Below, piece by piece: positions 49,919 to 49,942 of a stretch of 64,000 bases of DNA (its first letter is position 1; each line of letters begins with the position of its first letter). The DNA is taken from NCBI RefSeq assembly GCF_902498185.1, contig NZ_CABVIX010000010.1:62001-126000 (forward strand), read 5' to 3'. The notes beneath the pieces are model-generated. The model worked only from the letters and a program-made list of their open reading frames with translations. It was not told the origin of the DNA and did no database searches. The DNA is from Pseudomonas fluorescens. Lineage in GTDB: Bacteria > Pseudomonadota > Gammaproteobacteria > Pseudomonadales > Pseudomonadaceae. The position numbers and the translations under genes were made by a program.

Positions 49919-49942
49919 TGTACAATGCCCAAAACGTGTATA
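49919..49942. promoter_or_regulatory. Second PplR1/LitR-type box, TGTACA-N12-TGTATA
   Basis: TGTACA at 49919-49924, exactly 12 bases, then TGTATA at 49937-49942. It fits T(G/A)TACA-N12-TGTA(C/T)A without mismatch. It lies 51 bases before the renalase-like start and 114 bases before the divergent TIGR01777 gene, so either or both could be controlled. Confidence 0.8.

Follow-up and report, generated by a model that had tools for sequence, protein, structure and literature searches.

Organisation of the renalase locus

The window, a stretch of 64,000 nucleotides from Pseudomonas fluorescens, carries a renalase-like gene flanked by genes on both strands. The features discussed below are as follows.

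45505–46947, minus strand: DNA photolyase PhrB (domain matches)
46923–47825, minus strand: class II LitR-type MerR regulator, in the position of PplR1 (MerR HTH and B12-binding_2)
47815–48786, minus strand: RudS, tRNA 4-thiouridine desulfidase, TudS plus DUF1722 (PF04463 and PF08349; architecture as in PP_0741 in the available part of PMC11417400)
48803–48826, no strand: second putative operator, TGTACA-N12-TGTACA, before rudS (pattern match; recurrence in the genus)
48882–49868, minus strand: renalase, an FAD enzyme, ortholog of P. phaseolicola renalase 4ZCC (E 2.6e-168 over residues 1–326; Amino_oxidase domain)
49897–49902, minus strand: candidate –10, TAGCCT, 17-bp spacer; genus consensus TAGtCT (conservation)
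49919–49942, no strand: putative LitR/PplR-type operator, TGTACA-N12-TGTATA (exact pattern match; recurrence in the genus)
49920–49925, minus strand: candidate –35, TTGTAC, overlapping the operator (every base of TTGTACAG shared by 91% or more of 182 aligned loci)
50020–50027, plus strand: AAATAGAC, 36 nt from the ATG of TIGR01777; belongs to a conserved element that may be a promoter of its own for TIGR01777-hemH
50056–50961, plus strand: TIGR01777 family oxidoreductase (domain matches)
50975–51988, plus strand: hemH, ferrochelatase (domain matches)

Behind renalase follow rudS, litR and phrB in this order, and TIGR01777 and hemH are read divergently from it. Aligning the renalase-like protein with the solved renalase of P. 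phaseolicola gives 326 residues at 563 bits, as expected for a full-length ortholog, and the likeness to this enzyme (4ZCC, 4ZCD and 5KRQ) extends over the full length. Bacterial renalase, as characterised in P. phaseolicola, oxidises 2- and 6-dihydro-NAD(P), and by analogy with this ortholog the protein of the window presumably has the same activity.

The protein encoded at 46923–47825 matched only MerR families, weakly HTH_23, and PF02607 at E values up to 0.001; in the same domain search, at the same threshold, no cobalamin-binding domain was matched. A MerR HTH together with B12-binding_2 and without a cobalamin-binding domain is the composition of a class II LitR. In P. putida, RudS is PP_0741 and PplR1 is PP_0740 according to the available parts of PMC11417400 and PMC11014904, and by gene order renalase therefore corresponds to PP_0742.

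A LitR-type box before the renalase gene

The sequence TGTACAATGCCCAAAACGTGTATA lies exactly at 49919–49942 on the plus strand. Both the position and the exact sequence of the box given in the earlier note were thus borne out, and the box recurs before renalase in most genomes of the genus (see below). Read in the orientation of renalase it is TATACA-N12-TGTACA; 50 bp separate it from the start codon of renalase (ATG, 49868, minus strand) and 113 bp from that of TIGR01777 (50056, plus strand). Half-sites of the class II LitR/PplR1 type are described as T(G/A)TACA and TGTACA in the available part of PMC9758184; the box fits these exactly and has the same 12-bp spacing as the P. mendocina folM site described there.

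Exact matches to TRTACA-N12-TGTAYA are rare. The whole genome (G000, 4,854,699 bases) contains two, at 48803 and 49919, and the backwards-read control none. Allowing one mismatch gave eight genome sites versus two in the backwards control, so that one-mismatch sites elsewhere in the genome are uninformative by themselves. Within the window, up to two mismatches yielded four strand matches, corresponding to the two sites at 48803 and 49919. Dinucleotide shuffling of the window led to an expectation of 0.40 strand matches, and four were reached in none of 100 shuffles. The two boxes had been described in the earlier note as exact matches to one pattern; they are the same kind of site but are not identical, since the one at 48803 reads TGTACA-N12-TGTACA and differs by one letter.

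In the orientation of renalase, the left half-site is followed by N12, TTGTACA, TAGCCT 17 bp after TTGTAC, a GAGG ribosome site and the ATG. A standard sigma-70 promoter scan of 48700–50100 returned no match, so that the core promoter is proposed from conservation. The right half-site overlaps the candidate –35, which would place a bound regulator in the position of a repressor. On the minus strand, GCGTAGtCTG (window 49896–49905) is conserved beyond the sigma-70 hexamer across the 182 genus loci and forms an unusual –10-like block. As a loose pattern, this block occurs in 162 of 188 loci with the box and in 6 of 11 without it. A reading of GCGTAGtCT as an ECF-type –10 (CGTA) was rejected, as inspection by eye found no matching –35 at the right distance.

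Conservation of the box in the genus

Renalase was present in all 199 genomes of the genus sample, and all 199 loci were taken. Aligning each renalase with the protein of the window gave its presumed start, so that single distances may be some bases off. A box with at most one mismatch starts 60–95 bp before renalase in 182 of the 199 genomes. Shuffled upstream regions contained such a box in only 5 of 9950 cases (0.05%), and the chance that the box is a fortuitous match without function is negligible. Searched anywhere between renalase and its neighbour, the box was found in 188 of 199 genomes. Six loci carry it farther up, 100–452 bp before the renalase start (G133, G187, G113, G164, G069 and G043), and the intergenic region of eleven of the 199 holds no box with at most one mismatch (G166, G093, G028, G027, G013, G001, G120, G194, G147, G054 and G080).

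Conservation across the 182 aligned loci is uneven. A position of the half-sites holds 1.84 bits on average, against 0.93 in the N12 spacer (86 different sequences among the 182 loci) and 0.45 in the hemH-side flank, while the renalase-side block CGTAGtCTG reaches 1.56. Conservation of the promoter alone does not explain why the left half-site is kept, since it is situated before the –35. In renalase orientation this half-site is TATACC in 118 loci, TATACA in 47 and something else in 17. On the other strand TATACC reads GGTATA, which the available part of PMC9758184 gives as a half-site upstream of P. mendocina folM.

The distances to the two flanking genes behave differently. Among the 181 genus loci with both neighbours, the gap between box and renalase is 45–58 bp (sd 2.1), whereas the gap between box and TIGR01777 ranges from 112 to 250 bp (sd 33). 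The near-constant distance to renalase but not to TIGR01777, together with the conservation on the renalase side, points to the box as the renalase operator. It is very probably an operator for a LitR-type light repressor, and one that belongs to the renalase-like gene.

Renalase loci of other genera in the family

We compared 40 renalase loci from outside the genus, hand-picked from a list and representing 15 other genus groups. A box with at most one mismatch was present in the 400 bp before renalase in 22 of the 40; the other 18 had none in this interval, and 11 of these have rudS adjacent. All 16 loci of groups g9, g12, g10, g19 and g16 carry the box 71–78 bp upstream of renalase, at renalase identities down to 57%. 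In g16, where its distance is 74, the divergent neighbour is hemH itself. One locus labelled g9 (L336) has 87% identity and looks like a member of the putida clade. The three loci of g5 (51–53% identity) have the box at 41, 64 and 123 bp and thus do not keep the spacing, and one of the two g11 loci has it at 64 bp with one mismatch.

No box was found in this interval in either g18 locus or in any of the five g15 loci (L347–L351), and in g15 hemH, TIGR01777, rudS and LitR are likewise absent within 1.5 kb of renalase. The box is also lacking in g4, g6, g17, g8, g14 and the other g11 locus, 11 loci in all, although rudS is adjacent there. A box before renalase is therefore a common arrangement in the family, not a universal one. 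In g2 (L343 and L344), where the spacing is not kept either, the sole box found lies 213–220 bp before renalase, nearer to the other gene, and in L343 it is 18 bp from the start of TIGR01777; in this lineage the hemH side might be its target.

The hemH side

If the box acted in both directions, renalase and TIGR01777-hemH would both be controlled and ferrochelatase would be light-induced too, as the earlier note had envisaged. The divergent renalase/TIGR01777 pair is indeed retained in 197 of 199 genus loci, and the position of the box in the g2 loci and in L364 of g19, where it is about 29 bp from TIGR01777, would suit such an arrangement. On the plus strand the box runs into TATAAG, a –10 look-alike, and its TATACC variant reads TGGTATAAG/C, like an extended –10. 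However, RGTTT is favoured in the outer flanks of both arms of the renalase box (more weakly at the boxes on the rudS side), and the TATAAG can be explained, at least in part, by these symmetric flanks of the operator. A further parallel comes from Shewanella oneidensis, whose RpoE2-ChrR oxidative-stress regulon contains ybgA-phrB-cfa and pgpD-hemH2 according to the available part of PMC4336711. This regulon joins a photolyase with a ferrochelatase paralogue, but it does so under an ECF sigma factor and not under LitR.

Within the genus, the operator is not fixed relative to the gene on the hemH side, its distance to TIGR01777 being loose, and conservation falls off in this direction. A separate element is found closer to the TIGR01777 start: among 197 genus loci, AAATAGAC precedes TIGR01777 by 34–60 nt (43 ± 4 nt) in 156, while the other 41 lack it at this place. 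It may act as the promoter of TIGR01777-hemH or have some other control function. Expression data from P. putida point the same way. PP_0738–PP_0742, including the photolyase cluster, rose together in one transcriptome, and the available text of PMC11014904 does not name PP_0743 and PP_0744 with them. This rise occurred in co-culture under equal illumination and so speaks for co-regulation, not for light induction. These observations do not support the proposed control of TIGR01777-hemH by the box. Light control of hemH from this site is unlikely in the genus, and we give little credence to a box that serves both directions.

The rudS side and the distribution of the regulator

In 184 of the 199 genus genomes, the 650 bp behind renalase also contain a box with at most one mismatch; in 175, boxes flank renalase on either side. 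On the rudS side, where the window has one clear box, many genus loci have a pair separated by about 50 bp. In L057, L113 and L173, extra coding-like sequence was seen by eye between renalase and rudS.

The frequent pairing of boxes would fit a genuine LitR site that serves only rudS-litR-phrB at a distance, by looping with the site at 48803, and has no role for renalase. Against this stand the nearly fixed distance to renalase and two genomes, G118 and G148, that keep the box before renalase although they lack an adjacent rudS and have LitR on a different contig. We therefore hold a purely distal role to be very improbable. In all, eight genomes with a close LitR located away from renalase were examined; the six others have no box.

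Across the 199 genus loci, the box was present in 183 and absent in 4 where rudS is adjacent (judged within 1.5 kb around the locus), against 5 and 7 where it is not (Fisher p 1.1e-7); four of the eleven boxless genomes thus have rudS adjacent. On the tree (199 rows minus L182, whose inferred renalase start gave no translation) this link comes down to 3 supported independent pairs, too few for significance.

Five of the 199 genomes are without a close LitR match, defined as a best E weaker than 1e-60 with at most 11 candidates scored per genome: G015, G079, G089, G093 and G123. A more distant LitR-like match is still present in G015, G079 and G089. Among the 35 loci of the putida clade, two come from genomes that lack a close LitR, and in both the box is imperfect; the other 33 all have a perfect one (p 0.0017, uncorrected). 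In G093 both a close LitR and the box are gone. A connection between loss of the regulator and decay of the box is suggestive in the putida clade, but a comparison corrected for the tree had too few pairs; G079 (L159) and G123 (L154), which keep the renalase box without a close LitR, are contrary cases. Their boxes may reflect a recent loss of LitR, missing pieces of the assembly or another LitR-like regulator.

The persistence of the box in these two genomes, as well as the unusual –10-like block, could also mean that the box is a conserved piece of the renalase promoter used by another regulator that reads the same palindrome. However, the half-sites and the 12-bp spacing equal those of the PplR1/PmlR2 sites published in the available part of PMC9758184, the TATACC variant is the reverse complement of GGTATA in the folM site of P. 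mendocina, and in the putida clade the box is imperfect at just 2 of 35 loci, both in genomes that lack a close LitR. A different regulator accordingly strikes us as improbable.

Renalase as a candidate member of a light regulon

The locus closely resembles the class II LitR (PplR1–3, PmlR1–2)/short-LOV regulon of P. putida KT2440 and P. mendocina, with which it shares operator half-sites, spacing and the rudS-litR-phrB neighbourhood. In vitro, PmlR2 represses the P. mendocina promoter P6650 and illuminated PmSB-LOV lifts the repression; a nine-gene light-induced operon starting at PME6650 has been inferred in this species (PMC9758184, available part). Unlike in the locus described here, where an operator precedes renalase and lies over its candidate –35, renalase is not named as a target in the available texts on these regulons, and that of PMC9758184 does not mention it. 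We consider it likely that the box is the operator of the renalase promoter within a class II LitR/short-LOV light regulon and that renalase is light-inducible. The presence of the box 60–95 bp before the gene in 182 of 199 genomes ties a LitR-type operator to renalase; of the earlier note's reading of the box this part is supported, and the extension to TIGR01777-hemH is not.

By analogy with the P. mendocina work, from which repression and release are taken and whose operation at this site we infer, a LitR-type repressor bound to TATACA-N12-TGTACA in the dark would cover the renalase –35 and keep RNA polymerase off. Under blue light, a short LOV protein would bind the repressor and free the DNA. 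Renalase would then be made at the same time as RudS, LitR and photolyase, whose genes are served by another operator at a distance of 1.1 kb. TIGR01777-hemH would be read from a promoter of its own, closer to the gene start, and would change little.

The regulatory system itself is already known. The suggestion that this link had not been described is correct in part: class II LitR/short-LOV control of the neighbourhood is published, and a rise of PP_0742 with the photolyase cluster is reported in the available text of PMC11014904. No paper tying renalase to light was among the literature matches listed, nor was any on the regulation of P. phaseolicola renalase. Sumi et al. 2020 reportedly found 19 light-inducible genes in P. 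putida KT2440. This list may include PP_0742, in which case its induction is perhaps already on record.

The arrangement suggests that renalase is made in response to light in these bacteria. To our knowledge, the natural role of bacterial renalase is unsettled, and a light operator before its gene in about nine tenths of the genus genomes indicates when the enzyme may be needed. If this is true, nucleotide-cofactor repair would join a light response for which the available texts otherwise name photolyase, RudS, pterin and furan-fatty-acid genes. The earlier note ties such control to photo-oxidative stress, under which off-isomer NAD(P)H might arise and call for the enzyme. More speculatively, renalase could be an enzyme that Pseudomonas devotes to photoprotection: photochemical action of blue light on NAD(P)H and flavins would produce off-isomer dihydronicotinamides, and LOV-LitR would induce their repair. 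We regard this as possible but doubtful. It would mean that cofactor repair is induced together with DNA repair by photolyase and removal of tRNA 4-thiouridine by RudS, and would give bacterial renalase a physiological setting and explain its lasting linkage to the light operon.

As in KT2440 and P. mendocina, the genome encodes a short LOV protein and another LitR-like regulator away from this locus. On contig C3 (L320), a 173-aa frame at 1415–1936 (plus strand) encodes one LOV domain, including the reactive-Cys motif DCRFLQ, and no effector domain, as in the short-LOV class of about 150 aa. Its best matches are short-LOV structures, among them 3SW1 (E 9.4e-73), the structure of PpSB1-LOV. 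The second LitR-like MerR gene lies about 0.6 kb away at 2577–3518 (minus strand), an arrangement resembling that described for the pmlR2 locus of P. mendocina. Between the two genes there is a reading frame of 205 aa.
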